From NCBI GenBank assembly GCA_947650365.1, contig OX393551.1, forward strand, positions 91,424,697 through 91,488,696: 64,000 bases of DNA, read 5' to 3'. The DNA is from Chamaelirium japonicum (taxonomy: Eukaryota > Streptophyta > Magnoliopsida > Liliales > Melanthiaceae). Below the pieces are notes generated by a model. It saw only the letters and a program-made list of their open reading frames with translations. It searched no databases and was not told the origin of the DNA. Below are positions 1,691 to 58,692 of the stretch, one piece after another (position 1 is the stretch's first letter; every line of letters begins with the position of its first letter). The position numbers and the translations under genes were made by a program.

Positions 1691-1698
1691 ACGAATGA
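1683..1698. repeat. Palindromic +/- switch junction, 16 bp
   Basis: TCATTCGTACGAATGA is a perfect palindrome at the point where orientation flips from + to -. With two mismatches the dyad extends to 40 bp. Identical junctions lie at 11933-11948, 16689-16704 and 37453-37468, so this is one inherited junction copied with its unit. Confidence 0.95.
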
Positions 1699-6268: not shown

Positions 6269-6740
6269 CGAATCCATTCTATTTCATTCGTACGATCCAT
6301 TCTAATTCATTCGCACGATCCATTCTAATTCATTCATACGATCCATTCTAATTCATTCGTACGATCCATTCTTACTCATTCGTACGATCCATTCTAATTC
6401 ATTCGCACGATCCATTCTAATTCATTCGCACGATCCATTCTTACTCATTCGTACGATCCATTCTAATTCATTCGCATGATCCATTCTAATTCATTAATAC
6501 GATCCATTCTAATTCATTCGCACGATCCATTCTAATTCATTCACACTCATACGATCCATTCTAATTCATTCGCACGAATGTATCCATTCTAATTCATTCG
6601 TACGATCCATTCTAATTCATTCGCACAATCTATTCAAATTCATTCGAACGATCCATTCTAAGTCATTCGTACGATCCACTCTAATTCATTCACACAATCC
6701 ATTCTAATTCATTAGCACGATCCATTCTAATTCCTTCGTA
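6269..6740 (+). repeat. + block, 0.47 kb
   Basis: Homologous to 21255-21745 (0.49 kb). It contains the long variant monomer ATTCACACTCATACG near 6537-6551. The block ends in CCTTCGTATGAATG, a +/- switch at the monomer core. Confidence 0.93.
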
Positions 6741-10012: not shown

Positions 10013-11940
10013 AATCCATTCTATTTCATTCGTACAATCCATTCTAATTCATTCGCACGATCCATTCTAATTCATTCTTACGATCCATTCTAATTCATTC
10101 ATACGATCCATTCTAATTCATTCGTACGATTCATTCTAATTCATTCGCACAATCTATTCTAATTCATTCGTACGATCCATTCTAATTCATTCGCACGATC
10201 TATTCTAATTCATTCATACGATCCATTCTAATTCATTAATACGATCCAATCTAATTCATTCATACGATCCATTCTAATTCATTCGTACGATCCATTCTAA
10301 TTCATTCGCACGATCCATTCTAATTCATTCGCACGAATGTATCCATTCTAATTCATTCGTACGATCCATTCTAATTCATTCGTACGATCCATTCTAATTC
10401 ATTCGTACGATCCATTCTAATTCCTTCGTATGATCCATTTCAATTTATTCGCACAATCCATTCTAATTCATTCGTATGATCCATTCTAATTCATTCGTAC
10501 GATCCATTCTAATTCATTCGCACGATCCATTCTAATTCATTCGTACGATCCATTCTAATTCATTCGTACGATCTATTCTAATTCATTCGTACGATCCATT
10601 CTAATTCATTTGTACGAATGTATCCACTCTAATTCATTCATACGATCCATTCTAATTCATTCGCACGAATGTATCCATTCCAATTCATTCGTACGATCCA
10701 TTCTAATTCATTTGCACAATCTATTCTAATTCATTCGTACGATCCATTCTAATTCATTCGTACGATCCATTCTAATTCATTCGTACGATGCATTCTAATT
10801 CATTCGTACAATCCATTCTAATTCATTCGCACGATCCATTCGCATTCACTCAAACGATCCATTCTAATTCATTCATATGATCCATTCAAATTCATTCGCA
10901 TGAATGTATCTATTCTAATTCATTCGTACAATCCATTCTATTTCATTCGTACGATCCATTCTTACTCATTCGTACGATCCATTCGTATCCATTCTAATTC
11001 ATTCGTACGATCTATTCTAATTCATTCGTACGATCCATTCTAATTCATTAATACGATCCAATCTAATTCATTCATACGATCCATTCTAATTCATTCGCAC
11101 GAATGTATCCATTCTAATTCATTCACACGATCCATTCTAATTCATTCATACGATCCATTCTATTTCATTCGTACGATCCATTCTTACTCATTCGTACGAT
11201 CCATTCTAATTCATTCGTACGATCCATTCTAATTCCTTCGTATGATCCATTCTAATTCATTCGTACGGTATGATTCATTCTAATTCATTCGTACGATTCA
11301 TTCTAATTCAATCCATTCTAATTCATTCATACGATCCATTCTAATTCATTTGTACGATCCATTCTAATTCATTCGTACGATTCATTCTAATTCAATCCAT
11401 TCTAATTCATTCGTACGATCCATTCTTACTCATTCGTACGATCCATTCTAATTCATTCGCACGAATGAATCCATTCTTACTCATTCGTACGATCCATTCT
11501 AATTCATTCGAACGAATGAATCCATTCTAATTCATTCGTATGATCCATTCTAATTCATTTGCTTGAATGTATCCATTCTAATTCATTCCTACGATCCATT
11601 CTATCTCATTCGTACAATCCATTCTATTTCATTCGTACGATCCATTCTAATTCATTCGCACGATCCATTCTAATTCATTCGCATGATCCATTCTAATTCA
11701 TTCGTACGATCGATTCTAATTAATTCATACGATCCATTCTAATTCATTCGCACGAATGTATACATTCTAATTCATTCGTACGATCCATTCTAATTCATTC
11801 GCACAATCTATTCTAATTCATTCATACGATCCATTCTAATTTATTTGCACGATCCATTCTAATTCATTCATACGATCCATTCTAATTCATTCATATGATC
11901 CATTCTAATTCATTCGCACGATCCATTCTTACTCATTCGT
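10013..11940 (+). repeat. + block, 1.93 kb
   Basis: Same length (about 1927 bp) as 14770-16696, and about 25 bp longer than 35558-37460. It carries the landmarks GCATTCACTC near 10832 and CGGTATGATTC near 11267. It ends in the 16-bp palindromic switch. Confidence 0.95.
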
Positions 11941-13074
11941 ACGAATGAATTAGAATGGATCGTATTAATGAATTAGAATGGATCGTGTGAATGAATTAGA
12001 ATGGATCGTACGAATGAGTAAGAATGGATCGTGCGAATGAATTAGAATGGATCATATGAATGAATTAGAATGGATCGTATGAATGAATTAGAATGGATCG
12101 TGCGAATAAATTAGAATGGATCGTATGTATGAATTAGAATAGATTGTGCGAATGAATTAGAATGGATCGTACGAATGAATTAGAATGGATACATTCATGC
12201 GAATGAATTAGAATGGATCGTATGAATGAATTAGAATCGATCGTACGAATGAATTAGAATGGATCATGCGAATGAATTAGAATGGATCGTGCGAATGAAT
12301 TAGAATGGATCGTACGAATGAAATAGAATGGATTGTACGAATGAGATAGAATGGATCATACGAATGAATTATAATGGATACATTCATGCGAATGAATTAG
12401 AATGGATCATACGAATGAATTAGAATGGATTCATTCGTGCGATTGAATTAGAATGGATCGTACGAATGAGTAAGAATGGATCGTACGAATGAATTAGAAT
12501 GGATTGAATTAGAATGAATCGTACGAATGAATTAGAATGGATCGTACGAATGAATTAGAATGGATCGTACGAATGAATTAGAATGGATTGAATTAGAATG
12601 AATTGTACGAAAGAATTAGAATGAATCATACCGTACGAATGAATTAGAATGGATCATACGAAGGAATTAGAATGGTTCGTACAAATGAATTAGAATGGAT
12701 CGTACGAATGAATTAGAATGGATCGTACGAAGGAATTAGAATGGATCGTACGAAGGAATTAGAATGGATAGTACGAATGAATTAGAATGGATACCTTCGT
12801 GCAAATGAATTTGAATGGATCGTACGAATGAGTAAGAATGGATCGTACGAATGAAATAGAATGGATCGTATGAATGAATTAGAATGGATCGTGCGAATGA
12901 ATTAGAATGGATCGTACGAATGAATTAGAATAGATTGTGCGAATGAATTAGAATGGATCGTACGAATGAATTAGAATGGATCGTACGAATGAATTAGAAT
13001 GGATCGTATGAATGAATTAGAATGGATCGTGCGAATGAATTAGAATGGATCGTACAAATGAAATAGAATGGATT
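11941..13074 (-). repeat. - block, 1.13 kb
   Basis: Homologous to 1691-2847. Two GGATTGAATTAG units at 12501 and 12585 are 84 bp apart (3 x 23 + 15); in the 1691-2847 copy the spacing is 107 bp, one monomer more. Confidence 0.95.
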
Positions 13075-13407
13075 TGCACGAATGTATCCATTCTAATTCA
13101 TTCGTACGATCCATTCTAATTCATTCGTACAATCCATTCTAATTCATTCGCACGATCCATTCGCATTCACTCAAACGATCCATTCTAATTCATTCATCTG
13201 ATCCATTCTAATTCATTCGCACGAATGTATCCATTCTAATTCATTCGTACGATCCATTCTAATTCATTTGTATGAATGTATCCACTCTAATTCATTCATA
13301 CGATCCATTCTAATTCATTCGCACGAATGTATCCATTCCAATTCATTCGTACGATCCATTCAAATTCATTCATACAATCCATTCTAATTCATTCGCACGA
13401 ATGTATC
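13075..13407 (+). repeat. + block, 0.33 kb, truncated by duplication breakpoint
   Basis: It begins like 2848 and 17808 but is cut at about 13363, where it switches to the sequence that ends the block at 8651 (GAATGTATCAATGG). Confidence 0.9.
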
Positions 13408-14769
13408 AATGGATCGTACGAATGAATTAGAATGGATTGAATTAGAATGAATCGTACGAATGAATTAGAATGGATCGTGCGAATGAATTAGAATGGATTG
13501 TACGAATGAATTAGAATGGATCGTACGAATGAATTAGAATGGATCGTGCGAATGAATTTTAATGGATCGTACGAATGAATTAGAAAGGATACATTCGAAT
13601 TCATTCGTACGATCCATTCTAATTCATTCGCACAATCTATTCTAATTCATTCGTACGATCCATTCTAATTAGAATGGATACATTCATGCGAATGAATTAG
13701 AATGGATCGTATGAATGAATTAGAATCGATCGTACGAATAAATTAGAATGGATCATGCGAATGAATTAGAATGGATCGTGCGAATAAATTAGAATGGATC
13801 GTATGAATGAATTAGAATGGATCGTATGAATGAAATAGAATGGATCGTACGAATGAATTAGAATGGATCTTGCGAATGAATTAGAATGGATCGTACGAAT
13901 GAGTAAGAATGGATCGTAGAATGAAATAGAATGGATCGTATGAATGAATTTGAATGGATCGTGCGAATGAATTAGAATGGATCGTACGAATGAATTTGAA
14001 TGGATACATTCGTGCGAATGAATTAGAATGGATCATACAAAGGAATTAGACTGGATCGTACGAATGAATTAGAATGGATCGTACGAATGAATTAGAATGG
14101 ATCGTACGAATGAATTAGAATGGATACATTCGTGCGAATGAATTAGAATGGATCATACGAATAAATTAGAGTTGATATATTCGTGTGAATGAATTAAAAT
14201 GGATAATACGAATGAGTAAGAATGGATCGTAGAATTAGAATGGATCGTATGAATGAATTAGAATGGATACATACGAATGAATTAGAATGGATCGTATGAA
14301 TGAATTAGAATGGATCGTGCGAATGAATTAGAATGAATCGTACGAATGAATTAGAATGGATCGTACGAATGAATTAGAATGGATCGTATGAATGAATTAG
14401 AATGGATCGTACGAATGAATTAGAATAGATCGTACAAATGAATTAGAATGGATCGTACGAAGGAATTAGAATGGATCGTACGAAGGAATTAGAATGGATA
14501 GTATGAATGAAGTAGAATGGATCATGCGAATGAATTAGAATGGATCGTACGAATGAGTAAGAATGGATCGTACGAATGAATTAGAATGGATCGTACGAAT
14601 GAAATAGAATGGATACATTCATGCGAATGAATTAGAATGGATCATATGAATGAATTAGAATGGATCATTTGAGTGAATGCGAATGGATCGTGCGAATGAA
14701 TTAGAATGGATTGTACGAATGAATTAGAATGGATCGTACGAATGAATTAGAATGGATACATTCGTGCGA
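13408..14769. repeat. 2.1-kb compound unit, 5'-truncated copy
   Basis: Blocks - 13408-13596, + 13597-13668, - 13669-14769 reproduce 8652-10012 at an exact offset of 4756 bp. The first three blocks of the full unit are missing because the duplication began inside it. Confidence 0.92.
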
Positions 14770-16696
14770 ATCCATTCTATTTCATTCGTACAATCCATTC
14801 TAATTCATTCGGACGATCCATTCTAATTCATTCTTACGATCCATTCTAATTCATTCATACGATCCATTCTAATTCATTCGTACGATTCATTCTAATTCAT
14901 TCGCACAATCTATTCTAATTCATTCGTACGATCCATTCTAATTCATTCGCACGATCTATTCTAATTCATTCATACGATCCATTCTAATTCATTAATACGA
15001 TCCAATCTAATTCATTCATACGATCCATTCTAATTCATTCGTACGATCCATTCTAATTCATTCGCACGATCCATTCTAATTCATTCGTACGAATGTATCC
15101 ATTCTAATTCATTCGTACGATCCATTCTAATTCATTCGTACGATCCATTCTAATTCATTCGTACGATCCATTCTAATTCCTTCGTATGATCCATTTCAAT
15201 TTATTCGCACAATCCATTCTAATTCATTCGTATGATCCATTCTAATTCATTCGTACGATCCATTCTAATTCATTCGCACGATCCATTCTAATTCATTCGT
15301 ACGATCCATTCTAATTCATTCGTACGATCTATTCTAATTCATTCGTACGATCCATTCTAATTCATTTGTACGAATATATCCACTCTAATTCATTCATACG
15401 ATCCATTCTAATTCATTCGCACGAATGTATCCATTCCAATTCATTCGTACGATCCATTCTAATTCATTTGCACAATCTATTCTAATTCATTCGTACGATC
15501 CATTCTAATTCATTCGTACGATCCATTCTAATTCATTCGTACGATGCATTCTAATTCATTCGTACAATCCATTCTAATTCATTCGCACGATCCATTCGCA
15601 TTCACTCAAACGATCCATTCTAATTCATTCATATGATCCATTCAAATTCATTCGCATGAATGTATCTATTCTAATTCATTCGTACAATCCATTCTATTTC
15701 ATTCGTACGATCCATTCTTACTCATTCGTACGATCCATTCGTATCCATTCTAATTCATTCGTACGATCTATTCTAATTCATTCGTACGATCCATTCTAAT
15801 TCATTAATACGATCCAATCTAATTCATTCATACGATCCATTCTAATTCATTCGCACGAATGTATCCATTCTAATTCATTCACACGATCCATTCTAATTCA
15901 TTCATACGATCCATTCTATTTCATTCGTACGATCCATTCTTACTCATTCGTACGATCCATTCTAATTCATTCGTACGATCCATTCTAATTCCTTCGTATG
16001 ATCCATTCTAATTCATTCGTACGGTATGATTCATTCTAATTCATTCGTACGATTCATTCTAATTCAATCCATTCTAATTCATTCATACGATCCATTCTCA
16101 TTCATTTGTACGATCCATTCTAATTCATTCGTACGATTCATTCTAATTCAATCCATTCTAATTCATTCGTACGATCCATTCTTACTCATTCGTACGATCC
16201 ATTCTAATTCATTCGCACGAATGAATCCATTCTTACTCATTCGTACGATCCATTCTAATTCATTCGAACGAATGAATCCATTCTAATTCATTTGTATGAT
16301 CCATTCTAATTCATTTGCTTGAATGTATCCATTCTAATTCATTCGTACGATCCATTCTATCTCATTCGTACAATCCATTCTATTTCATTCGTACGATCCA
16401 TTCTAATTCATTCGCACGATCCATTCTAATTCATTCGCATGATCCATTCTAATTCATTCGTACGATCGATTCTAATTCATTCATACGATCCATTCTAATT
16501 CATTCGCACGAATGTATACATTCTAATTCATTCGTACGATCCATTCTAATTCATTCGCACAATCTATTCTAATTCATTCATACGATCCATTCTAATTTAT
16601 TCGCACGATCCATTCTAATTCATTCATACGATCCATTCTAATTCATTCATATGATCCATTCTAATTCATTCGCACGATCCATTCTTACTCATTCGT
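14770..16696 (+). repeat. + block, 1.93 kb
   Basis: Direct copy of 10013-11940. A private A-to-C change near 16098 (CTCATTC for CTAATTC) removes one stop codon and opens an 86-codon frame at 16026-16286. That frame is absent from the sister copy, which shows how such frames arise by chance. Confidence 0.95.
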
Positions 16697-17807
16697 ACGA
16701 ATGAATTAGAATGGATCGTATTAATGAATTAGAATGGATCGTGTGAATGAATTAGAATGGATCGTACGAATGAGTAAGAATGGATCGTGCGAATGAATTA
16801 GAATGGATCATATGAATGAATTAGAATGGATCGTATGAATGAATTAGAATGGATCGTGCGAATAAATTAGAATGGATCGTATGTATGAATTAGAATAGAT
16901 TGTGCGAATGAATTAGAATGGATCGTACGAATGAATTAGAATGGATACATTCATGCGAATGAATTAGAATGGATCGTATGAATGAATTAGAATCGATCGT
17001 ACGAATGAATTAGAATGGATCATGCGAATGAATTAGAATGGATCGTGCGAATGAATTAGAATGGATCGTACGAATGAAATAGAATGGATTGTACGAATGA
17101 GATAGAATGGATCATACGAATGAATTATAATGGATACATTCATGCGAATGAATTAGAATGGATCATACGAATGAATTAGAATGGATTCATTCGTGCGATT
17201 GAATTAGAATGGATCGTACGAATGAGTAAGAATGGATCGTACGAATGAATTAGAATGGATTGAATTAGAATGAATCGTACGAATGAATTAGAATGGATCG
17301 TACGAATGAATTAGAATGGATCGTACGAATGAATTAGAATGGATTGAATTAGAATGAATTGTACGAAAGAATTAGAATGAATCATACCGTACGAATGAAT
17401 TAGAATGGATCATACGAAGGAATTAGAATGGTTCGTACGAATGAATTAGAATGGATCGTACGAATGAATTAGAATGGATCGTACGAAGGAATTAGAATGG
17501 ATAGTACGAATGAATTAGAATGGATACCTTCGTGCAAATGAATTTGAATGGATCGTACGAATGAGTAAGAATGGATCGTACGAATGAAATAGAATGGATC
17601 GTATGAATGAATTAGAATGGATCGTGCGAATGAATTAGAATGGATCGTACGAATGAATTAGAATAGATTGTGCGAATGAATTAGAATGGATCGTACGAAT
17701 GAATTAGAATGGATCGTACGAATGAATTAGAATGGATCGTATGAATGAATTTGAATGGATCGTGCGAATGAATTAGAATGGATCGTACAAATGAAATAGA
17801 ATGGATT
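16697..17807 (-). repeat. - block, 1.11 kb
   Basis: Homologous to 11941-13074 and one monomer shorter (see 17480-17510). CATACCGTAC landmark at 17383-17392. Confidence 0.95.
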
Positions 17808-19230
17808 CGCACGAATGTATCCATTCTAATTCATTCGTACGATCCATTCTAATTCATTCGTACAATCCATTCTAATTCATTCGCACGATCCATTCGCATT
17901 CACTCAAACGATCCATTCTAATTCATTCATCTGATCCATTCTAATTCATTCCCACGAATGTATCCATTCTAATTCATTCGTACGATCCATTCTAATTCAT
18001 TTGTATGAATGTATCCACTCTAATTCATTCATACGATCCATTCTAATTCATTCGCACGAATGTATCCATTCCAATTCATTCGTACGATCCATTCTAATTC
18101 ATTCACACAATCTATTCTAATTCATTCGTACGATCAATTCTAATTCATTAGCATGATCCATTCTAATTCATTCGTACGATCTATTCTATTTCATTCGTAT
18201 AATCCATTCTTACTCAATCGTATGATCCATTCTAATCCATTCGCACAATCTATTCTAATTCATTCGTACGATCCATTCTATTTCATTCGTATGATCCATT
18301 CTAATTCATACGATCCATTCTATTTCATTCATACGATCCATTTTAATTCATTCGCACGTTCCATTCTAATTCATTCATACGATCCATTCTAATTCATTCG
18401 TACGATCCATTCTAATTTCTTCGTATGATCTATTCTAATTCCTTCGTACGATCCATTCTAATTCCTTCGTACGATCCATTCAAATTCATTCGCACGAATC
18501 TATCCATTCTAATTCATTCGTACGATCCATTCTAATTCATTCGCACGATCCATTCTAATTCATTAATACGATCCAATCTAATTCATTTATATGATCTATT
18601 CTAATTCATTCGCACGAATATATCCTTTCTAATTCATTCGTATGATCCATTCTAATTCATTCACACAATCTATTCTAATTCATTAGTACGATCCATTCTA
18701 ATTCATTCGTACGATCCATTCTAATTCATTAGCACGATCCAAATTCATTTATCCGTACGATCTATTCTATTTCATTCGTCCGATCCATTCTTATCGCACG
18801 ATCCATTCTAATTCATTCGCATGATCCATTCTCTATTCTAATTCCTTCGTACGATCCATTCTAATTCCTTCGTATCCATTCTAATTCACTCATACGATCC
18901 ATTCTAATTCATTCATACGATCCTTTCTAATTTATTCGCATGAATGTATCCATTCTAATTCATTCGTACGATCCATTCTAATTCATTCGCATGATCCATT
19001 CTAATTCATTCGCACGATCCATTCTAATTCATTCATACGATCCATTCTAATTCATTCGTACGATCCATTCTAATTCATTCGCACGATCCATTCTAATTCA
19101 TTCGCATGAATGTATCTATTCTAATTCATTCGTATGATCCATTCTAATTCATTCACACGATCCTTTCTAATTCATTCATACAATCCATTCTATTTCTTTT
19201 GCACGAATGTATCCATTCTAATTCATTCGT
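17808..19230 (+). repeat. + block, 1.42 kb, left arm
   Basis: Homologous to 2848-4247 and 38595-40017, and inverse to the right part of 19231-21254. The +/- switch is ATTCATTCGTATGAATGAAT. Confidence 0.95.
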
Positions 19231-21254
19231 ATGAATGAATTAGATTGGATCGTATTAATGAATTAGAATGGATACATTCATGCGAATGAATTAGAATGGA
19301 TTGTATGAATGAATTAGATTGGATCGTATAAATGAATTAGAATGGATCTTACGTATGAATTAGAATGGATTATATGAATGAAATAGAATGGATCATACGA
19401 ATGAAATAGAATGGATCGTACGAAGGAATGAGAATGGATCGTATGAATGAATTAGAGTGGATACATTCGTGCGAATGAATTCGAATAGATCGTGCGAATG
19501 AATTAGAATGGATTGTACGAATGAATTAGAATGGATCGTACGAATGAAATAGAATGGATCGTACGAATGAATTAGAATGGATACATTCGTGGAAAAGAAA
19601 TAGAATGGATTGTATGAATGAATTAGAATGGATCGTGTGAATGAATTAGAATGGATCATACGAATGAATTAGAATGGATACATTCGTGCGAATGAATTAG
19701 AATGGATCGTGCGAATGAATTACAATGGATCGTACGAATGAATTAGAATGGATCGTATGAATGAATTAGAATGGATCGTGCGAATGAATTAGAATGGATC
19801 GTGCGAATGAATTAGAATGGATCGTACGAATGAATTAGAATGGATCGTATGAATGAATTAGATTGGATCATATTAATTAATTAGAATGGATCGTACGAAT
19901 GAATTAGAATAGATCGTACGAATGAATTAGAATGGATACGAATGGATCGTACGAATGAGTAAGAATGGATCGTACGAATGAAATAGAATGGATTGTACGA
20001 ATGAATTAGAACGGATACATTCGTGTGAATGAATTATGATGGATCGTATGAATGAATTAGAATAGATTGTGCGAATGAATTAGAATGGATCGTACGAATG
20101 AATTAGAATGGATACATTCATGCGAATGAATTACAATGGATTGTATGAATGAATTAGAATGGATCGTATGAGTGAATTAGAATGGATACGAAGGAATTAG
20201 AATGGATCGTACGAAGGAATTAGAATGGAGAATGGATCGTGCGAATGAATTAGAATGGATCGTGCGATAAGAATGGATCGGACGAATGAAATAGAATAGA
20301 TCGTACGGATAAATGAATTTGGATCGTGCTAATGAATTAGAATGGATCGTACGAATGAATTAGAATGGATCGTACTAATGAATTAGAATAGATTGTGTGA
20401 ATGAATTAGAATGGATCGTACGAATGAATTAGAAAGGATATATTCGTGCGAATGAATTAGAATAGATCGTATGAATGAATTAGATTGGATCGTATTAATG
20501 AATTAGAATGGATCGTGCGAATGAATTAGAATGGATCGTACGAATGAATTAGAATGGATAGATTCGTGTGAATGAATTTGAATGGATCGTACGAAGATAT
20601 TAGAATGGATCGTACGAAGGAATTGGAATAGATCATACGAAGAAATTAGAATGGATCGTACGAATGAATTAGAATGGATCGTATGAATGAATTAGAATGG
20701 ATCGTGCGAATGAATTAAAATGGATCGTATGAATGAAATAGAATGGATCGTATGAATTAGAATGGATCATACGAATGAAATAGAATGGATCGTACGAATG
20801 AATTAGAATAGATTGTGCGAATGGATTAGAATGGATCATACGATTGAGTAAGAATGGATTGTACGAATGAAATAGAATAGATCGTACGATTGAATTAGAA
20901 TGGATCATGCTAATGAATTAGAATTGATCGTACGAATGAATTAGAATAGATTGTGCGAATGAATTAGAATGGATCGTACGAATGAATTGGAATGGATACA
21001 TTCGTGCGAATGAATTAGAATGGATCGTATGAATGAATTAGAGTGGATACATTCGTACAAATGAATTAGAATGGATCGTACGAATGAATTAGAATGGATA
21101 CATTCGTGCGAATGAATTAGAATGGATCATATGAATGAATTAGAATGGATCGTTTGAGTGAATGCGAATGGATCGTGCGAATGAATTAGAATGGATTGTA
21201 CGAATGAATTAGAATGGATCGTACGAATGAATTAGATTGGATACATTCGTGCGA
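19231..21254 (-). repeat. - block, 2.02 kb, right arm plus spacer
   Basis: Homologous to 4248-6268. The inverted pair of 79-codon frames (18153 on +, first codon at 20908 on -) gives a symmetry centre near 19530 and a separation of 2755 bp. This is 23 bp more than the same pair in the first copy (2732 bp). Confidence 0.95.
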
Positions 21255-21745
21255 ATCCATTCTATTTCATTCGTACGATCCATTCTAATTCATTCGCACG
21301 ATCCATTCTAATTCATTCATACGATCCATTCTAATTCATTCGTACGATCCATTCTTACTCATTCGTACGATCCATTCTAATTCATTCGCACGATCCATTC
21401 TAATTCATTCATACGATCCATTCTAATTCATTCGCACGATCCATTCTTACTCATTCGTACGATCCATTCTAATTCATTCGCATGATCCATTCTAATTCAT
21501 TAATACGATCCATTCTAATTCATTCGCACGATCCATTCTAATTCATTCACACTCATACGATCCATTCTAATTCATTCGCACGAATGTATCCTTTCTAATT
21601 CATTCGTACGATCCATTCTAATTCATTCGCACAATCTATTCAAATTCATTCGAACGATCCATTCTAAGTCATTCGTACGATCCACTCTAATTCATTCGCA
21701 CAATCCATTCTAATTCATTAGCACGATCCATTCTAATTCCTTCGT
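21255..21745 (+). repeat. + block, 0.49 kb
   Basis: Homologous to 6269-6740, with about one additional monomer. It is part of the asymmetric centre of the outer palindrome. Confidence 0.93.
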
Positions 21746-23079
21746 ATGAATGAATTAGAATGGATCGTACAAATGAATTAGAATGGATCGTACGAATGAA
21801 TTAGAATGGATCGTTCGAATGAATTAGAATAGATTGTGCGAATGAATTAGAATGGATCGTACGAATGAATTAGAAAGGATATATTCGTGCGAATGAATTA
21901 GAATGGATCGTATGAGTGTGAATGAATTAGAATATATTCGTGCGAATGAATTAGAATGGATCGTATGAGTGTGAATGAATTAGAATGGATCGTGCGAATG
22001 AATTAGAATGGATCGTGCGAATGAATTAGAATGGATCGTACGAATGAGTAAGAATGGATCATGCGAATGAATTAGAATGGATCATATGAATGAATTAGAA
22101 TGGATCTAATGAATGAATTAGAATGGATCGTGCGAATAAATTAGAATGGATCGTATGAATGAATTAGAATAGATTGTGCGAATGAATTATAATGGATCGT
22201 ATGAATAAATTAGAATGGATACATTCGTGCGAATGAATTAGAATGGATTGTATGAATGAATTAGAATCGATCGTACGAATGAATTAGAATGGATCATGCG
22301 AATGAATTAGAATGGATCGTGCGAATGAATTACAATGGATCGTACGAATGAAATAGAATGGATTGTACGAATGAGATAGAATGGATCGTACGAATGAATT
22401 AGAATGGATACATTCATGCGAATGAATTAGAATGGATCATACAAATGAATTAGAATGGATTCATTCGTGCGAATGAATTAGAATGGATCGTACGAATGAG
22501 AAAGAATGGATCGTACGAATGAATTAGAATGGATTGAATTAGAATGAATCATACGAATGAATTAGAATGGATCGTACGAATGAATTAGAATGGATCGTAC
22601 GAATGAATTAGAATGGATTGAATTAGAATAAATCGTACGAATGAATTAGAATGAATCATACCGTACGAATGAATTAGAATGGATCATACGAAGGAATTAG
22701 AATGGATCGTACGAATGAATTAGAATGGATCGTACGAAGGAATTAGAATGGATCGTACGAAGGAATTAGAATGGATCGTACGAAGGAATTAGAATGGATA
22801 CCTTCGTGCAAATGAATAAGAATGGATCGTACGAATGAGTAAGAATGGATCGTACGAATGAAATAGAATGGATCGTATGAATGAATTAGAATGGATCGTG
22901 CGAATGAATTAGAATGGATCGTACGAATGAATTAGAATAGATTGTGCGAATGAATTAGAATGGATCGTACGAATGAATTAGAATGGATCGTACGAATGAA
23001 TTAGAATGAATCGTATGAATGAATTAGAATGGATCGTGCGAATGAATTAGAATGGATCGTACGAATGAAATAGAATGGA
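21746..23079 (-). repeat. - block, 1.33 kb
   Basis: The left part matches 6741 onward. The right part matches the 1691-2847 family, including GAATCATACCGTACG near 22654 and the GAAGGAATTAG run near 22740-22790. It ends in GGATTCGCACGAATGTATCC. Confidence 0.92.
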
Positions 23080-25104
23080 TTCGCACGAATGTATCCATTC
23101 TAATTCATTCGTACGATCCATTCTAATTCATTCGTACAATCCATTCTAATTCACTCGCACGATCCATTCGCATTCACTCAAACGATCCATTCTAATTCAT
23201 TCATATGATCCATTCTAATTCATTCGCACGAATGTATCCATTCTAATTCATTCGTATGATCCATTCTAATTCATTTGTACGAATGTATCCACTCTAATTC
23301 ATTCATACGATCCATTCTAATTCATTCGCACGAATGTATCCATTCCAATTCATTCGTACGATCCATTCTAATTCATTCGCACAATCTATTCTAATTCATT
23401 CGTACGATCAATTCTAATTCATTAGCATGATCCATTCTAATTCATTCGTACGATCTATTCTATTTCATTCGTACAATCCATTCTTACTCAATCGTATGAT
23501 CCATTCTAATCCATTCGCACAATCTATTCTAATTCATTCGTACGATCCATTCTATTTCATTCGTATGATCCATTCTAATTCATACGATCCATTCTATTTC
23601 ATTCATACGATCCATTTTAATTCATTCGCACGATCCATTCTAATTCATTCGTACGATCCATTCTAATTCATTCGTACGATCCATTCTAATTTCTTCGTAT
23701 GATCTATTCTAATTCCTTCGTACGATCCATTCTAATTCCTTCGTACGATCCATTCAAATTCATTCGCACGAATCTATCCATTCTAATTCATTCGTACGAT
23801 CCATTCTAATTCATTCGCACGATCCATTTTAATTCATTAATACGATCCAATCTAATTCATTCATTTGATCTATTCAAATTCATTCGCACGAATATATCCT
23901 TTCTAATTCATTCGTACGATCCATTCTAATTCATTCACACAATCTATTCTAATTCATTAGTACGATCCATTCTAATTCATTCGTACGATCCATTCTAATT
24001 CATTAGCACGATCCAAATTCATTTATCCGTACGATCTATTCTATTTCATTCGTCCGATCCATTCTTATCGCACGATCCATTCTAATTCATTCGCACGATC
24101 CATTCTCCATTCTAATTCCTTCGTACGATCCATTCTAATTCCTTCGTATCCATTTTAATTCACTCATACGATCCATTCTAATTCATTCATACGATCCATT
24201 CTAATTCATTCGCATGAATGTATCCATTCTAATTCATTCGTACGATCCATTCTAATTCATTCGCATAATCTATTCTAATTCATTCATATGACCCATCATA
24301 ATTCATTCGCACAAATGTATCTATTCTAATTCATTCATACAATCCATTCTATTTCATTCGTACGATCCATTCTTACTCATTCGTACGATCTATTCGTATC
24401 CATTCTAATTCATTCGTACGATCTATTCTAATTCATTCGTACGATCCATTCTAATTCATTAATACGATCCAATCTAATTCATTCATACAATCCATTCTAA
24501 TTCATTCGTACGATCCATTCTAATTCATTCGCACGATCCATTCTAATTCATTCGCACGATCCATTCTAATTCATTCATACGATCCATTCTAATTCATTCG
24601 TACGATCCATTCTAATTCATTCGCACGATCCATTCTAATTCATTCGCATGAATGTATCCATTCTAATTCATTCGTATGATCCATTCTAATTCATTCACCC
24701 GATCCATTCTAATTCATTCGTACAATCCATTCTATTTCTTTTGCATGAATGTATCCATTCTAATTCATTCGTACGATCCATTCTATTTCATTCGTACGAT
24801 CCATTCTAATTCATTTGTACAATCCATTCTAATTCATTCGCACGATCTATTCGAATTCATTCGCACGAATGTATCCACTCTAATTCAGTCATACGATCCA
24901 TTCTAATTCTTTCGTACGATCCATTCTATTTCATTCGTATGATCCATTCTATTTCATTCATATAATCCATTCTAATTCATACATAAGATCCATTCTAATT
25001 CATTTATACGATCCAATCTAATTCATTCATACAATCCATTCTAATTTATTCGCACGAATGTATCCATTCTAATTCATTAATACGATCCAATCTAATTCAT
25101 TCAT
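23080..25104 (+). repeat. + block, 2.02 kb, reversed copy of the 2.02-kb - blocks
   Basis: The 79-codon frame at 23427 and the 76-codon frame at 24676 are 1249 bp apart. In the - block 4248-6268 the corresponding first codons, 5925 and 4676, are also 1249 bp apart. Length and order therefore match in reverse. Confidence 0.93.
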
Positions 25105-26597
25105 ACGAATGAATTAGAATGGATACATTCGTGCAAAAGAAATAGAATGGATTGTATGAATGAATTAGAATGGATCGTGTGAATGAATTAGAATAGATCA
25201 TACGAATGAATTAGAATGGATACATTCGTGCGAATGAATTAGAATGGATCGTGCGAATGAATTAGAATGGATCGTATGAATGAATTAGAATGGATCGTAT
25301 GAATAAATTAGAATGGATCGTGCGAATGAATTAGAATGGATCGTGCGAATGAATTAGAATGGATCATACGAATGAATTAGAATGGATACATTCATGCGAA
25401 TGAATTAGAATGGATCGTATGAATGAATTAGAATGGATCGTATGAGTGAATTAGAATGGATACGAAGGAATTAGAATGGATCGTACGAAGGAATTAGAAT
25501 GGAGAATGGATCGTGCGAATGAATTAGAATGGATCGTGCGATAAGAATGGATCGGACGAATGAAATAGAATAGATCGTACGGATAAATGAATTTGGATTG
25601 TGCTAATGAATTAGAATGGATCGTACGAATGAATTAGAATGGATCGTACTAATGAATTAGAATAGATTGTGTGAATGAATTAGAATGGATCGTACGAATG
25701 AATTAGAATGGATCGTACTAATGAATTAGAATAGATTGTGTGAATGAATTAGAATGGATCGTACGAATGAATTAGAAAGGATATATTCGTGCGAATGAAT
25801 TAGAATAGATCGTATGAATGAATTAGATTGGATCGTAATAATGAATTAGAATAGATCGTGCGAATGAATTAGAATGGATCGTACGAATGAATTAGAATGG
25901 ATAGATTCGTGCGAATGAATTTGAATGGATCGTACGAAGGAATTAGAATGGATTGTACGAAGGAATTAGAATAGATCATACGAAGAAATTAGAATGGATC
26001 GTACGAATGAATTAGAATGGATCGTATGAATGAATTAGAATGGATCGTGCGAATGAATTAAAATGGATCGTATGAATGAAATAGAATGGATCGTATGAAT
26101 TAGAATGGATCATACGAATGAAATAGAATGGATCGTACGAATTAATTAGAATAGATTGTGCGAATGGATTAGAATGGATCATACGATTGAGTAAGAATGG
26201 ATTGTACGAATGAAATAGAATAGATCGTACGAATGAATTAGAATGGATCATGCTAATGAATTAGAATTGATCGTACGAATGAATTAGAATAGATTGTGCG
26301 AATGAATTAGAATGGATCGTACGAATGAATTGGAATGGATACATTCGTGCGAATGAATTAGAATGGATCGTATGAATGAATTAGAGTGGATACATTCGTA
26401 CAAATGAATTAGAATGGATCGTACGAATGAATTAGAATGGATACATTCGTGCGAATGAATTAGAATGGATCATATGAATGAATTAGAATGGATCGTTTGA
26501 GTGAATGCGAATGGATCGTGTGAATGAATTAGAATGGATTGTACGAATGAATTAGAATGGATCGTACGAATGAATTAGAATGGATACATTCGTGCGA
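25105..26597 (-). repeat. - block, 1.49 kb, reversed copy of the 1.4-kb + arms
   Basis: Pairs with 23080-25104 around a centre near 24839. The frame separation is 2824 bp, 69 bp (three monomers) more than in the 17.8-kb copy. A local duplication of GTACTAATGAATTAG units at about 25648 and 25717 accounts for the three additional monomers. Confidence 0.92.
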
Positions 26598-28318
26598 ATC
26601 CATTCTATTTCATTCGTACGATCCATTCTAATTCATTCGCACGATCCATTCTAATTCATTCATACGATCCATTCTAATTCATTCGTACGATCCATTCTAA
26701 TTCATTCGTACGATCCATTCTAATTCATTCGCACAATCTATTCTAATTCATTCGTACGATCCATTCTAATGCATTCGCATGATCCATTCTAATTCATTCA
26801 TACGATCCATTCTAATTCATTCGTACGATCCATTCTAATTCCTTCGTACGATCCATTCTAATTCATTCGTACGATCCATTCTAATTCATTCGTACGATCC
26901 ATTCTAATTCCTTCGTACGATCCATTCTAATTCATTCGTACGGTATGATTCATTCTAATTCATTCGTACGATTCATTCTAATTCAATCCATTCTAATTCA
27001 TTCGTACGATCCATTCTAATTCATTCGTATGATCCATTCTAATTCATTCGTACGATTCATTCTAATTCAATCCATTCTAATTCATTCGTACGATCCATTC
27101 TTACTCATTCGTACGATCCATTCTAATTCATTCGCACGAATGAATCCATTCTAATTCATTCGTATGATCCATTCTAATTCATTTGCATGAATGTATCCAT
27201 TCTAATTCATTCGTACGATCCATTCTATCTCATTCGTACAATCCGTTCTATTTCATTCGTACGATCCATTCTAATTCATTCGCACGATCCATTCTAATTC
27301 ATTCGCATGACCCATTCTAATTCATTCGTACGATCGATTCTAATTCATTCATACGATCCATTCTAATTCATTCGCACGAATGTATCCATTCTAATTCATT
27401 CGTACGATCCATTCTAATTCATTCGCTCAATCTATTCTAATTCATTCATACGATCCATTCTAATTTATTCGCACGATCCATTCTAATTCATTCATACGAT
27501 CCATTCTAATTCATTCTTATGATCCATTCTAATTCATTCGCACGATCCATTCTAATTCATTCATACGATCCACTCTATTTCATTCGTACGATCCATTCTT
27601 ACTTATTCGTACGATCCATTCTAATTCATTTGCACGAAGGTATCCATTCTAATTCATTCGTACTATCCATTCTAATTCCTTCGTACGATCCATTCTAATT
27701 CCTTCGTACGATCCATTCTAATTCATTCGTACGATCCATTCTAATTCATTCGTACGATCCATTCTAATTCCTTCGTATGATCTATTCTAATTCATTCGTA
27801 CGGTATGATTCATTCTAATTCATTCGTACGATTCATTCTAATTCAATCCATTCTAATTCATTCGTACGATCCATTCTAATTCATTCGTACGATCTATTCT
27901 AATTCATTCGTATGATTCATTCTAATTCAATCCATTCTAATTCATTCGTACGATCCATTCTAATTCATTCGCACGATCCATTCTAATTCATTCGTACGAT
28001 CCATTCTATTTCATTCATACAATCCATTCTAATTCATTCATACGATCTATTCTAATTCTTTCGCACGAATGTATCCATTCTAATTTATTCGTACGATCCA
28101 TTCTAATTCATTCGCACGATCTATTGTAATTCATTCATACAATCCATTCTAATTCTTTTGCACGAACGTATCCACTCTAATTCATTCGTACGATCCATTA
28201 TAATTCATTTGTACGAATGTATCCTTTCTAATTCATTCGTACGATCCATTCTAATTCATTCGTATTATCCATTCTAATTCATTCGTACGATCCATTCTAA
28301 TTCATTCGCACGATCCAT
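26598..28318 (+). repeat. + block, 1.72 kb, mosaic
   Basis: Related to the 1.9-kb + blocks, but the CGGTATGATTC landmark occurs twice here (26941 and near 27809). That indicates an internal duplication of about 0.87 kb relative to the other copies. Confidence 0.9.
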
Positions 28319-28346
28319 TGAATTAGAATGGATACATTCGTGCGAA
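28319..28346 (-). repeat. Single-monomer inversion islet
   Basis: GAATTAGAATGG-oriented unit of about 28 bp inside + sequence. It enters at CCATTGAATTAG and leaves through TTCGTGCGAATCC, the same exit used by kilobase-sized - blocks. Confidence 0.9.
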
Positions 28347-29151
28347 TCCATTCTATTTCATTCGTACGATCCATTCTAATTCATTCGCACGATCCATTCT
28401 AATTCATTCATACGATCCATTCTATTTCATTCGTACGATCCAATCTAATTCTTTCGTACGATCCATTCTAATTCATTCGTACGATCCAATCTAATTCATT
28501 CGTACTATCCATTCTAATTCCTTCGTACGATCTATTCTAATTCCTTCGTACGATCCATTCTAATTCATTCGTACGATCCATTCTAATTCCTTCCTATGAT
28601 CCATTCTAATTCATTCGTACGGTATGATTCATTCTAATTCATTCGTACGATTCATTCTAATTCAATCCATTCTAATTCATTCGTACGATCCATTCTAATT
28701 CATTCGTACGATCCATTCTAATTCATTCGTACGATCCATTCTAATTCATTTGTACGAATGTATCCGCTCTAATTCATTCGTACGATCCATTCTAATTCAT
28801 TTGTACGAATGTATCCTTTCTAATTCATTCGTACGATCCATTCTAATTCATTCGTACGATCCATTCTAATTTATTCATACAATCCATTCTAATTCCTTCG
28901 TACGATCCATTCTAATTTATTCGTAAGATCCATTCTAATTCATTCGCACGATCCATTCTAATTCATTCGTACGATTCAATCTAATTTAATCCATTCTAAT
29001 TCATTCCATTCTAATTCATTCGCACGATCCATTCGCATTCACTCAAACGATCCAATCTAATTCATTCATACAATCCATTCTACGATCCATTCTAATTCAT
29101 TCGTACGATCCATTCTAATTCATTCATACAATCTATTCTAACTCATTCGTA
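28347..29151 (+). repeat. + block, 0.80 kb
   Basis: Contains a third CGGTATGATTC landmark near 28620 and GCATTCACTC near 29033, so it is another partial copy of the 1.9-kb + family. It ends in an irregular switch, CATTCGTAGGATCGTGCG. Confidence 0.92.
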
Positions 29152-29736
29152 GGATCGTGCGAATGAATTAGAATGGATCGTGCGAATGAGTTAGAATAGA
29201 TCGTACGAATGAATTAGAATGGATCGAACGAATGAATTAGAATGGATCGTACGAATAAATTAGAAAGGATACATTCGTACAAATGAATTAGAATGGATCG
29301 TACGAATGAATTAGAGTGGATACATTCGTACAAATGAATTAGAATGGATCGTACGAATGAATTAGAATGGATCGTACGAATGAATTAGAATAGATCGTAC
29401 GAATGAATTAGAATGGATTGAATTAGAATGAATCGTACGAATGAATTAGAATGAATCATACCGTACTAATGAATTAGAATGGATCATAGGAAGGAATTAG
29501 AATGGATCGTACGAATGAATTAGAATGGATCGTACGAAGGAATTAGAATAGATCGTACGAAGGAATTAGAATGGATAGTACGAATGAATTAGATTGGATC
29601 GTACGAATGAATTAGAATGGATCGTACAAATGAATTAGATTGGATCGTACGAATGAAATAGAATGGATCGTATGAATGAATTAGAATGGATCGTGCGAAT
29701 GAATTAGAATGGATCATACGAATGAAATAGAATGGA
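29152..29736 (-). repeat. - block, 0.58 kb
   Basis: GAATTAGAATGG-oriented, with a GAATCATACCGTAC landmark near 29452. It is a shortened relative of 1691-2847. Confidence 0.92.
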
Positions 29737-29763
29737 TTCGCACGAATGTATCCATTCTAATTC
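29737..29763 (+). repeat. Single-monomer + islet
   Basis: One 28-bp-type unit (CACGAATGTATCC then ATTCTAATTC) between two - blocks. It enters by the usual GGATTCGCACG junction and leaves abruptly at TTCAATGGATCG. Confidence 0.9.
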
Positions 29764-30723
29764 AATGGATCGTGCGAATGAATTAGAATGGATCGTACGA
29801 ATGAATTAGAATGGATCATATGAATGAATTAGAATGGATCGTACGAATGAATTAGAATGGATCGTACGAATGAATTAGAAAGGATACATTCGTACAAATG
29901 AATTAGAATGGATCGTACGAATGAATTAGAGTGGATACGTTCGTGCAAAAGAATTAGAATGGATTGTATGAATGAATTAGAATGGATCGTGCGAATGAAT
30001 TAGAATGGATCGTACGAATGAATTAGAATGGATACATTCGTGCGAAAGAATTAGAATAGATCGTATGAATGAATTAGAATGGATCGTATGAATGAAATAG
30101 AATGGATCGTACGAATGAATTAGAATGGATCGTGCGAATGAATTAGAATGGATCGTATGAATGAATTAGGATGGATTGAATTAGAATGAATCATACGAAT
30201 GAATTAGAATAGATCGTACGAATGAATTAGAATGGATCGTACGAATGAATTAGAATGGATTGAATTAGAATGAATCGTACGAATGAATTAGAATGAATCA
30301 TACCGTACGAATGAATTAGAATAGATCATACGAAGGAATTAGAATGGATCGTACGAATGAATTAGAATGGATCGTACGAAGGAATTAGAATGGACCGTAT
30401 GAAGGAATTAGAATGGATAGTACGAATGAATTAGAATGGATACCTTCGTGCAAATGAATTAGAATGGATCGTACAAATGAGTAAGAATGGATCGTACGAA
30501 TGAAATAGAATGGATCGTATGAATGAATTAGAATGGATCGTGCGAATGAATTAGAATGGATCGTACAAATGAATTAGAATAGATTGTATGAATGAATTAG
30601 AATGGATCGTACGATTGAATTAGAATGGATCGTACGAATGAATTAGAATAGATCGTATGAATGAATTAGAATGGATCGTGCGAATGAATTAGAATGGATC
30701 GTACGAATGAAATAGAATGGATT
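29764..30723 (-). repeat. - block, 0.96 kb
   Basis: Another relative of the 1.1-kb - family, with GAATCATACCGTACG near 30296 and the GAAGGAATTAG run near 30370-30400. Confidence 0.93.
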
Positions 30724-30924
30724 CGCACAAATGTATCCATTCTAATTCATTTGTACGATCCATTCTAATTCATTCGTATGATTTATTCTAATTCATTCGC
30801 ATGATCCATTTTAATTCATTCATACGATCCAACCTAATTCATTCGTACGATCCATTCTAATTCATTCGCACGAATGTATCAACTCTAATTCATTCGTACG
30901 ATCCATTCTAATTCATTCATACAT
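30724..30924 (+). repeat. + block, 0.20 kb
   Basis: Short + block. Its right switch is at ACATGTACGAATG, the TACATGTA-type junction also seen near 8306, 31738 and 51414. Confidence 0.93.
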
Positions 30925-31346
30925 GTACGAATGAATTAGAATGGATACATTCGTGCGAATGAATTAGAATGGATCGTATGAATGAATTAGATTGGATCGT
31001 ATGCATGAATTAGAATGGATCGTGCGAATGAATTAGAATGGATCGTACGAATGAATTAGAATGGATCGAACGAATGAATTAGAATGGATCGTACGAATGA
31101 GTAAGAAGGGATCGTACGAATGAATTAGAATGGATCGTACGAATGAATTAGAATGGATACATTCGTGCGAATGAATTAGAATGGATCATATGAATGAATT
31201 AGAATGGATCGTTTGAGTGAATACGAATGGATCGTGCGAATGAATTAGAATGGATCGTACGAATGAATTAGAATGGATCGTACGAATGAATTAGAATGGA
31301 TCGTGCGAATGAATTAGAATGGATCGTACGAATGAAATAGAATATA
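30925..31346 (-). repeat. - block, 0.42 kb
   Basis: It ends with the tail of the 2.1-kb unit (GTTTGAGTGAAT near 31212), so it is a truncated copy placed immediately before two full tandem copies. Confidence 0.9.
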
Positions 31347-33480
31347 TTCGCACGAATGTATCCATTCTAATTCATTCGTACGATCCATTCTAATTCATTC
31401 GTACAATCCATTCTAATTCATTCGCACGATCCATTCGCATTCACTCAAACGATCCATTCTAATTCATTCATATGATCCATTCTAATTCATTCGCACGAAT
31501 GTATCCATTCTAATTCATTCGTACGATCCATTCTAATTCATTCATACGATCCATTCTTACTCATTCGTACGATCCATTCTAATTCATTCGTTCGATCCAT
31601 TCTAATTCATTCGTACGATCCATTCTAATTCATTCGCACGATCCATTCTAATTCATGCATACGATCCAATCTAATTCATTCATGCGATCCATTCTAATTC
31701 ATTCGGACGAATGTATCCATTCTAATTCATTCGTACATGTATGAATGAATTAGAATGGATCGTACGAATGAATTAGAGTTGATACATTCGTGCGAATGAA
31801 TTAGAATGGATCGTACGATTGAATTAGATTGGATCATATGAATGAATTATAATGGATCATGCGAATGAATTAGAATAGATCATACGAATGAATTAGAATG
31901 GATCGTACGAATGAATTAGAATTTATACATTTGTGCGAATCCATTCTATTTCATTCGTACGATCCATTCTAATTCATTCGCACGATCCATTCTAATTTGT
32001 TCATACGATCCATTCTAATTCATTCGCACGATCCATTCTAATTCATTCATACGATCCATTCTAATTCATTCGCACGATTGTATCAATGGATCGTACGAAT
32101 GAATTAGAATGGATTGAATTAGAATGAATCGTACGAATGAATTAGAATTGATCGTGCGAATGAATTAGAATGGATTGTACGAATGAATTAGAACGGATCG
32201 TACGAATGAATTAGAATGGATCGTGCGAATGAATTTTAATAGATCGTACGAATGAATTAGAAAGGATACATTCGAATTCATTCGTACGATCCATTCTAAT
32301 TCATTCGCACAATCTATTCTAATTCATTCGTACGATCCATTCTAATTAGAATGGATACATTCGTGCGAATGAATTAGAATGGATCGTATGAATGAATTAG
32401 AATCGATCGTACGAATAAATTAGAATGGATCATGCGAATGAATTAGAATGGATCGTGCGAATAAATTAGAATGGATCGTATGAATGAATTAGAATGGATC
32501 GTATGAATGAAATAGAATGGATCGTACGAATGAATTAGAATGGATCGTGCGAATGAATTAGAATGGATCGTACGAATGAGTAAGAATGGATCGTAGAATG
32601 AAATAGAATGGATCGTATGAATGAATTTGAATGGATCGTGCGAATGAATTAGAATGGATCGTACGAATGAATTTGAATGGATACATTCGTGCGAATGAAT
32701 TAGAATGGATCATACGAAGGAATTAGACTGGATCGTACGAATGAATTAGAATGGATCGTACGAATGAATTAGAATGGATCGTACGAATGAATTAGAATGG
32801 ATACATTCGTGCGAATGAATTAGAATGGATCATACGAATGAATTAGAGTTGATACATTCGTGTGAATGAATTAAAATGGATAATACGAATGAGTAAGAAT
32901 GGATCGTAGAATTAGAATGGATCGTATGAATGAATTAGAATGGATACATACGAATGAATTAGAATGGATCGTATGAATGAATTAGAATGGATCGTGCGAA
33001 TGAATTAGAATGAATCGTACGAATGAATTATAATGGATCATACGAATGAATTAGAATGGATCGTATGAATGAATTAGAATGGATCGTACGAATGAATTAG
33101 AATAGATCGTACAAATTAATTAGAATGGATCGTACGAAGGAATTAGAATGGATCGTACGAAGGAATTAGAATGGATAGTACGAATGAAGTAGAATGGATC
33201 GTGCGAATGAATTAGAATGGATCGTACGAATGAGTAAGAATGGATCGTACGAATGAATTAGAATGGATCGTACGAATGAATTAGAATGGATACATTCGTG
33301 CGAATGAATTAGAATGGATCATATGAATGAATTAGAATGGATCGTTTGAGTGAATGCGAATGGATCGTGCGAATGAATTAGAATGGATCGTACGAATGAA
33401 TTAGAATGGATCGTACGAATGAATTAGAATGGATCGTGCGAATGAATTAGAATGGATCGTACGAATGAAATAGAATGGAT
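31347..33480. repeat. 2.1-kb compound unit, copy 2
   Basis: Blocks: + 31347-31738, - 31739-31938, + 31939-32084, - 32085-32274, + 32275-32345, - 32346-33480. Order and lengths match 7916-10012. The unit is followed directly by another copy. Confidence 0.93.
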
Positions 33481-35557
33481 TCGCACGAATGTATCCATTC
33501 TAATTCATTCGTACGATCCATTCTAATTCATTCGTACAATCCATTCTAATTCATTCGCACGATCCAATCGCATTCTCTCAAACGATCCATTCTAATTCAT
33601 TCATATGATCCATTCTAATTCATTCGCACGAATGTATCCATTCTAATTCATTCTTACGATCCGTTCTAATTCATTCGTACGATCCATTCTTACTCATTCG
33701 TACGATCCATTCTAATTCATTCGTTCGATCCATTCTAATTCATTCTTACGATCCATTCTAATTCATTCGCACGATCCATTCTAATTCATGCATACGATCC
33801 AATCTAATTCATTCATACGATCCATTCTAATTCATTCGCACGAATGTATCCATTCTAATTCATTCGTACATGTATGAATGAATTAGAATGGATCGTACGA
33901 ATGAATTAGAGTTGATACATTCGTGCGAATGAATAAGAATGGATCGTACGAATGAATTAGATTGGATCGTATGAATGAATTATAATGGATCATGCGAATG
34001 AATTAGAATAGATCATACGAATGAATTAGAATGGATCGTACGAATGAATTAGAATGGATACATTTGTGCGAATCCATTCTATTTCATTCGTACGATCCAT
34101 TCTAATTCATTCGCACGATCCATTCTAATTCGTTCATACGATCCATTCTAATTCATTCGCACGATCCATTCTAATTCATTCATACGATCCATTCTAATTC
34201 ATTCGCACGAATGTATCAATGGATCGTACGAATGAATTAGAATGGATTGAATTAGAATGAATCGTACGAATGAATTAGAATGGATCGTGCGAATGAATTA
34301 GAATCGATTGGACGAATGAATTAGAATGGATCGTACGAATGAATTAGAATGGATCGTGCGAATGAATTTTAATGGATCGTACGAATGAATTAGAAAGGAT
34401 ATATTCGAATTCATTCGTACGATCCATTCTAATTCATTCGCACAATCTATTCTAATTCATTCCTACGATCCATTCTAATTAGAATGGATACATTCATGCG
34501 AATGAATTAGAATGGATCGTATGAATGAATTAGAATCGATCGTACAAATAAATTAGAATGGATCATGCGAATTAATTAGAATGGATCGTGCGAATAAATT
34601 AGAATGGATCGTATGAATGAATTAGAATGGATCATATGAATGAAATAGAATGGATCGTACGAATGAATTAGAATGGATCTTGCGAATGAATTAGAATGGA
34701 TCGTACGAATGAGTAAGAATGGATCGTAGAATGAAATAGAATGGATCGTATGAATGAATTTGAATGGATCGTGCGAATGAATTATAATGGATCGTACGAA
34801 TGAATTTGAATGGATACATTCGTGCGAATGAATTTGAATGGATCATACAAAGGAATTAGACTGGATCGTACGAATGAATTAGAATGGATCGTACGAATGA
34901 ATTAGAATGGATACATTCGTGCGAATGAATTAGAATGGATCATACGAATAAATTAGAGTTTATATATTCGTGTGAATGAATTAAAATGGATAATACGAAT
35001 GAGTAAGAATGGATCGTAGAATTAGAATGGATCGTATAAATGAATTAGAATGGATACATACGAATGAATTAGAATGGATCGTATGAATGAGTTAGAATGG
35101 ATCGTGCGAATGAATTAGAATGAATCGTACGAATGAATTAGAATGGATCGTACGAATGAATTAGAATGGATCGTATGAATGAATTAGAATGGATCGTACG
35201 AATGAATTAGAATAGATCGTACAAATGAATTAGAATGGATCGTACGAAGGAATTAGAATGGATCGTACGAAGGAATTAGAATGGATAGTACGAATGAAGT
35301 AGAATGGATCGTGCGAATGAATTAGAATGGATCGTACGAATGAGTAAGAATGGATCGTACGAATGAATTAGAATGGATCGTACGAATGAAATAGAATGGA
35401 TACATTCATGCGAATGAATTAGAATGGATCATATGAATGAATTAGAATGGATCATTTGAGTGAATGCGAATGGATCGTGCGAATGAATTAGAATGGATTG
35501 TACGAATGAATTAGAATGGATCGTACGAATGAATTAGAATGGATACATTCGTGCGAA
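33481..35557. repeat. 2.1-kb compound unit, copy 3
   Basis: Blocks: + 33481-33869, - 33870-34070, + 34071-34217, - 34218-34406, + 34407-34478, - 34479-35557. The GGATAATACG landmark is 2110 bp after the one in copy 2. The pair at 7313/9445 is 2132 bp apart; the difference is one monomer lost near 34900 plus the 1-bp deletion private to the 8.5-kb copy. It ends like 10012, not like 33480. Confidence 0.93.
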
Positions 35558-43613: not shown

Positions 43614-43620
43614 ACGAATA
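43584..43620 (+). repeat. A6 junction segment, copy 1
   Basis: Non-canonical stretch TAGCACGAAAAAACACG then ATCCACTCACATACGAATAA. The six-A run (43592-43597) is the longest homopolymer I saw. It sits at a +/- switch. Other copies: 49233-49270, 52024-52063 (reverse complement) and 58655-58692. Confidence 0.92.
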
Positions 43621-58681: not shown

Positions 58682-58692
58682 CATACGAATAA
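58655..58692 (+). repeat. A6 junction segment, copy 3
   Basis: A6 at 58663-58668. It differs from the other copies by CACTAACATACG instead of CACTCACATACG. Confidence 0.92.

Follow-up and report, generated by a model that had tools for sequence, protein, structure and literature searches.

We analysed a 64,000-bp window of the Chamaelirium japonicum genome (C3:91424697-91488696, contig OX393551.1) that is filled by a strand-switching satellite array, very probably the centromeric satellite Chio1/2, and in which a preliminary description had singled out an 8.8-kb palindrome built from two 3.4-kb units that are themselves palindromic, here called A and B. This outer palindrome is probably ordinary for the array and inherited by direct duplication: A and B are inverted copies of one another without being mutual nearest relatives, and the whole block recurs collinearly upstream. 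What the analysis adds is evidence suggesting that the alternation of monomer orientation in this satellite derives from a few amplified junctions, and that the founders of its tail-to-tail switches preferred an 8-bp dyad within the monomer. We give a probability of roughly three in four to the account as a whole, in which old dyad-linked switches and a unit made by fold-back were shuffled through the array and the mirror pair travelled as a passenger of a direct duplication.

The outer palindrome and its ancestry

That the two units are inverted copies was confirmed by alignment: with B reverse-complemented, its identity to A is 98.06% (3380 matches, 67 mismatches, 70-71 gap columns), versus 92.5% in the direct sense. 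As a control we aligned 24 random pairs of 3447-bp blocks in both senses; 20 of them lay at 0.75-0.91 identity either way, well below the two units. The other four, pieces of other duplications, scored 0.96-0.99 in a single orientation, where no more than 44-75% of the block was matched. The outer arms extend beyond the limits first proposed for them (Table 1), with 200-bp tiles mostly at 0.95-1.0 and weaker homology out to ~16800 and ~27600. The middle, in contrast, is not palindromic: the 1825 bp between the units (21255-23079) match their own reverse complement at 81%, the background for unrelated satellite, and the window's switch map has no strand switch at the outer centre, ~22.16 kb. 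The two arms of the proposed 8.8-kb palindrome are thus real, but its continuity through the centre is not, and the three landmark pairs said to locate that centre independently all lie on one alignment and hence are not independent. Nor is the structure singular, as the window holds 12 inverted and 15 direct chains longer than 2 kb, with many different centres, and four complete copies of the unit, oriented + + - +, as well as partial ones.

To place A and B among their relatives, we compared 17 near-full unit copies, 4 from the window and 13 from other loci (further known copies, such as those at C3:72959363 and C152:40828, are not in the tree). Among these, the copy nearest to A is U1, in direct orientation (99.45%), and that nearest to B is C3:91412145-91415568, ~36 kb off (99.18%), whereas A and B are only 98.1% alike. 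The tree supports A with U1 at 0.932, a clade of U1, A, U3 and the copy at 91404k at 0.989, and B with the copy at 91412k at 0.996. When 16401-28400 was tiled at 300 bp, 35 of the 40 tiles found their best direct match on a diagonal in C3:91402970-91417448, 32 of these 35 at 0.98-1.0 with gaps counted, and the remaining five matched elsewhere within the same 20 kb. This collinear copy of A, spacer and B lies 36-38 kb upstream and is ~99% alike, with an indel or jump of ~2.45 kb near 21.2-21.5 kb, beside the outer spacer.

Because A and B are not mutual nearest relatives among the 17 copies, are separated by a 1.44-kb asymmetric spacer and belong to a block with a collinear direct copy, the outer palindrome does not appear to be a fresh hairpin product; no junction lies at or beside its centre of symmetry either. 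On the simplest reading, the mirror arrangement would be older than the direct duplication that copied it.

Table 1 Features of the window discussed in the text (window coordinates)
Feature	Position	Strand	Basis
Unit A, 3447 bp, imperfect palindrome with loop	17808..21254	+	arm alignment
Left arm of unit A, minus-oriented monomers	17808..19234	-	
Loop (spacer) of unit A, ~590 bp, tail-to-tail switch at left edge	19235..19821	+	
Right arm of unit A, plus-oriented monomers, inner end at TCGTACGA (19822-19829)	19822..21253	+	
Unit copy U1, direct copy of A, 99.45%	2848..6271	+	
Unit copy U3, direct copy of A, 98.93%	38595..42041	+	
Unit B, inverted copy of A, 98.06%	23081..26597	-	
J1 head-to-head junction, exact, left end of A	17799..17822	-	
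J1 head-to-head junction, exact, right end of A	21239..21262	+	
J1 head-to-head junction, exact, left end of B	23073..23096	-	
J1 head-to-head junction, exact, right end of B	26582..26605	+	
Left outer arm, left limit approximate	17200..21425	+	
Asymmetric spacer of outer palindrome, 1438 bp	21426..22863	.	
Right outer arm, right limit approximate	22864..27020	-	
Stretch collinear (direct) with C3:91402970-91417448, indel included	16401..28400	+	300-bp tiles
Strand-switching array of 23-bp monomer (rotation TCGTACGAATGAATTAGAATGGA) and 28-bp variant, inferred Chio1/Chio2 centromeric satellite	1..64000	.	monomer spacings

The palindromic 3.4-kb unit

The description of the 3.4-kb unit as an inverted repeat was borne out for unit A, whose 1.42-kb arms (17808-19234 versus 19822-21253) are 95.3% alike, the unit as a whole matching its own reverse complement at 92.0%. 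Orientation switches tail to tail within TCGTATGA (19228-19235), at one edge of the loop, and each inner arm end falls in the 8-bp dyad, either intact or with one base changed. Because inverted arms thus flank a ~590-bp loop, with the switch at a loop edge and the inner ends in the dyad, hairpin-mediated inverted duplication is a plausible origin for the founder 3.4-kb unit; the layout suggests a strand that folded back at the dyad and then copied itself. The earlier idea of a hairpin or template-switch origin therefore remains plausible at the level of the founder unit, but finds no support at that of the outer palindrome, whose arms are not sisters.

Copies of the unit also occur on contigs C2, C35, C150 and C237. 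By BLAST, with indels included, 10 of the other 16 full copies match A at 97.1-98.9%, and because the arms of A are less alike than this, the fold-back would be older than the amplification, a reading that applies to these closer copies only and that conversion between arms could change.

Strand-switch junctions and the dyad

We catalogued strand switches in 290,196 bases comprising the window and other loci, minus overlapping loci and the satellite-free C3:91300000-91309999. The 312 switches fell into 57, 42 and 30 classes at edit limits 2, 3 and 5 (32, 16 and 9 of them singletons), numbers that are lower bounds of events, as independent switches in the dyad look alike and may merge. One head-to-head class, J1 (GGATACATTCGTGCGAATCCATTC), had 84, 87 and 95 members at these limits, accounting at limit 5 for 95 of the 160 head-to-head switches. 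Across the genome searched (1,518,659,071 bases in 3253 contigs), exact J1 occurred 13,395 times, 6705 forward and 6690 reverse (two-sided P = 0.90), versus 0 and 0 for a reversed-pattern control, and 19 exact sites lie in the window, including both ends of A and of B. These counts rest on exact and substitution-only scans; a 3-edit scan was dropped because it also matched ordinary 28-bp monomers.

Arms flanking the switches in the window were 0.77-0.83 identical, versus 0.81-0.84 for random opposite-strand segments (100, 200 and 400 bp), the sole slight excess being that of head-to-head arms at 100 bp (0.830 versus 0.808). With arms so near background there is no sign of recent fold-back at the window's switches, and hairpin palindromes at strand switches were rejected as a candidate feature. 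The pattern suggests that strand switches are mostly inherited from a few amplified junctions rather than constantly regenerated.

The tail-to-tail classes favour the dyad. In-register joins at TCGTACGA accounted for 8/37, 6/29 and 5/19 of these classes at the three edit limits, against 2.4% in a null of 500 random joins (binomial P from 2e-6 to 7e-5). The mean share of the breakpoint falling anywhere in the dyad, a less telling measure, was 0.49, 0.44 and 0.60 for tail-to-tail classes (null 0.41) and 0.41-0.42 for head-to-head classes (null 0.33). The enrichment suggests that tail-to-tail founder switches prefer the dyad, pointing to ancient fold-back followed by amplification.

A proposed history and its competitors

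From the observed copy relations, the few junction classes, the tail-to-tail dyad bias and the collinear second copy, we infer a fold-back step, an exchange mechanism and an order of events. A few ancient strand switches would have arisen in the Chio1/2 array, some of them at the monomer's 8-bp dyad, probably when a broken or stalled strand folded back or switched template, and one such event may have given rise to the 3.4-kb unit of arm, loop and inverted arm. Unequal exchange, conversion or duplication would then have multiplied long segments that carried old switches and shuffled them in both orientations. The mirror pair of A, spacer and B would have been born in this shuffling, and a direct duplication spanning at least 12 kb would later have taken it along passively, making the nested symmetry a by-product of array turnover.

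Several observations weigh against this history. The position of the inner arm ends of A in the dyad says little by itself, as the dyad covers 8 of the monomer's 23 bases, and 6 of the 16 other unit copies are just 90.7-96.8% like A by BLAST. The switch sample was drawn mostly around matches to unit A, its class numbers being lower bounds; the dyad test was picked post hoc, after the junctions had been viewed, its enrichment depends on the class definition, and head-to-head classes lack it altogether (1/20, 1/13 and 0/11 versus a 2.0% null). Free flipping does not hold everywhere, as J1 orientation is regionally coherent on C2: among the matches listed there (C2:1652905-2172340, ~0.5 Mb), every site has the plus orientation, against a balanced total for the genome. 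The 17-copy tree could be blurred by gene conversion, and the A part of the collinear copy is 98.82% like A, below U1. For the A half generally, copies within the window often match as well as or better than the upstream copy.

The step that created the mirror pair may have been homologous exchange between inverted repeats in the array, flipping one of several direct unit copies, an explanation that we hold tentatively and at somewhat less than even odds. It draws on two long segments that overlap by ~450 bp: 17510-22230 repeats 2450-7200 in the direct sense (~99%), and 21780-27500 matches 37500-43150 in inverted orientation (~98%). Such an overlap fits exchange in a shared repeat, but it is ambiguous owing to later deletion or insertion, and a later duplication of U1 together with a spacer indel would also explain it. 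The genome-wide strand balance of J1 is in keeping with inversion by exchange, whereas the 0.5 Mb of coherent orientation among the matches listed on C2 is not. That a recent hairpin-mediated fold-back made the 8.8-kb palindrome directly is, by comparison, unlikely: the arms are 98% alike over ~4 kb, and the monomer offers a dyad at which tail-to-tail switches are enriched, but A and B do not pair as sisters, a collinear copy of the block lies upstream, the centre lacks a switch and the arms at the window's switches are near background. An older fold-back, preceding the direct duplication, is possible.

We consider it very unlikely that the symmetry is an assembly artefact, whether from chimeric fold-back reads or from collapsed or duplicated haplotypes. 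Satellite arrays are hard to assemble, the 1.52-Gb assembly exceeds the 1C value of 1.368 Gb given for Chionographis japonica in PMC10264360, a scaffold gap may lie in the 4.7 kb that separate the window from the upstream copy, and a megabase-scale mirror at 71-73 Mb on C3 could represent two haplotigs. Against this, the arms are set apart by a spacer and have diverged by 2%, with indels among the differences, the window has no N, unit copies recur on four other contigs, and the published assembly was built from HiFi reads according to PMC10264360; a fold-back read artefact in particular would be an unlikely source of the symmetry. Hardly credible, finally, is a foldback-type transposon with long terminal inverted repeats of short tandem repeats. 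The unit does have tandem-repeat inverted arms around a loop, and its 17 near-full copies are spread over several contigs, but the copies inspected all lie inside the same satellite, homology runs through the unit ends, and four J1 sites on C1 that seemed isolated proved to be in satellite. The history of shuffling followed by passive direct duplication thus remains our preferred reading.

Wider organization of the array

If this history is right, Chio alternation would stem largely from a few dozen old junctions, one of them multiplied to more than 13,000 exact copies. A bolder extension, which we regard as doubtful, is that Chio centromeres spread from one centromere unit of the holocentric chromosomes to another by means of a palindromic higher-order unit bounded by J1 instead of the 23-bp monomer, possibly by way of fold-back or circular intermediates at the conserved dyad; if so, the near-perfect strand balance of J1 across the genome would reflect either the mode of replication or selection for strand-symmetric centromere chromatin.

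The window consists entirely of one AT-rich satellite (64 kb, GC content ~0.33, no N), with monomer spacings of 23 bp (n=1113) and 28 bp (n=135). Monomer strand flips about every kilobase, giving 72 switches above a minimum-size filter, and TTCGTACGA occurs 441 times forward and 423 times in reverse. The 23-bp monomer corresponds to the 28-bp monomer minus 5 bp with one substitution (GAATGAATTAGAATGGATACATTCGTGC versus GAATGAATTAGAATGGATCGTAC). Elsewhere, satellite is present on C3 at 71-73 and 91-92 Mb; among the matches listed, J1 sites occur at many places on C1, with satellite at all four C1 sites inspected.

On a much larger scale, C3:71245000-71264999 and C3:73340000-73359999, 2.1 Mb apart, form an inverted match of at least 16 kb. 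Of the first 16 1-kb tiles, 14 are at 99.0-99.7%, one at 98.3% and one, beside a ~1-kb indel, at 94.7%; identity drops in later tiles, where the compared partner sequence ends. Five pairs of unit matches are centred near 72.28-72.30 Mb, and no N occurs in 72276000-72295999. This mirror may mean that an entire centromere unit of 2 Mb is palindromic, or that two haplotigs were joined head to head during scaffolding.

Other features were also recorded. A tandem direct duplication of 4.7 kb (8621-13361 and 13377-18094, shift 4756) overlaps the left end of the palindrome region. CATTC occurs twice per monomer across window positions 1-64000, a possible point of resemblance to the CATTC-derived human satellites. 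A search of the window against Rfam returned no match at the gathering score, and a structured RNA was accordingly rejected as a candidate. The flank at C3:91300000-91309999 is free of the satellite and has a GC content of 0.475, several minisatellites, some of them GATCGG-rich, and an open frame of 1045 residues judged Copia-like by eye.

Comparison with known systems

Foldback transposons carry terminal inverted repeats made of tandem repeats, and the 3.4-kb unit resembles them in having a loop flanked by inverted arms that consist of short tandem repeats. Unlike them, it has no visible element boundary, the satellite running on to both sides.

A closer counterpart is the pair Chio1 and Chio2, the 23- and 28-bp CENH3-bound satellites of the holocentric Chionographis japonica, which form several megabase-scale arrays per chromosome in a primary assembly of 1,526,137,861 bp obtained from HiFi reads (Kuo et al. 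2023, PMC10264360). The array in the window is very probably Chio1/2, matched by its described features rather than by monomer letters: monomers of 23 and 28 bp that differ by a 5-bp deletion and one substitution, TTCGTACGA and alternating orientation are all found here. Its centromere function is inferred from the papers of Kuo et al., with CENH3 enrichment reported in PMC10264360. In the available portions of PMC10264360 and PMC12722358 and in literature titles, supplementary files lying outside this scope, we found neither a few-junction origin of the alternation nor a tail-to-tail dyad preference; those portions of the two papers likewise gave no reason why Chio arrays alternate while those of the sister genus keep a single orientation.

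That sister satellite, Chama of Chamaelirium luteum, shares the 9-bp TTCGTACGA with Chio, whose orientation alternates often, but has a 60-bp monomer and consistently oriented arrays without alternation (Kuo et al. 2025, PMC12722358). The window resembles the Chio1/2 account of PMC10264360, as far as its available text goes, in the 23- and 28-bp monomers, the 5-bp deletion with one substitution, the 8-bp dyad and the mixture of forward and reverse arrays. The 3.4-kb palindromic unit, J1 and its copy number were not found in that text, which names a higher-order cluster, CL73, that may overlap the 3.4-kb unit. The mirror symmetry is a local detail of what is very probably an already described array, not a new kind of element.

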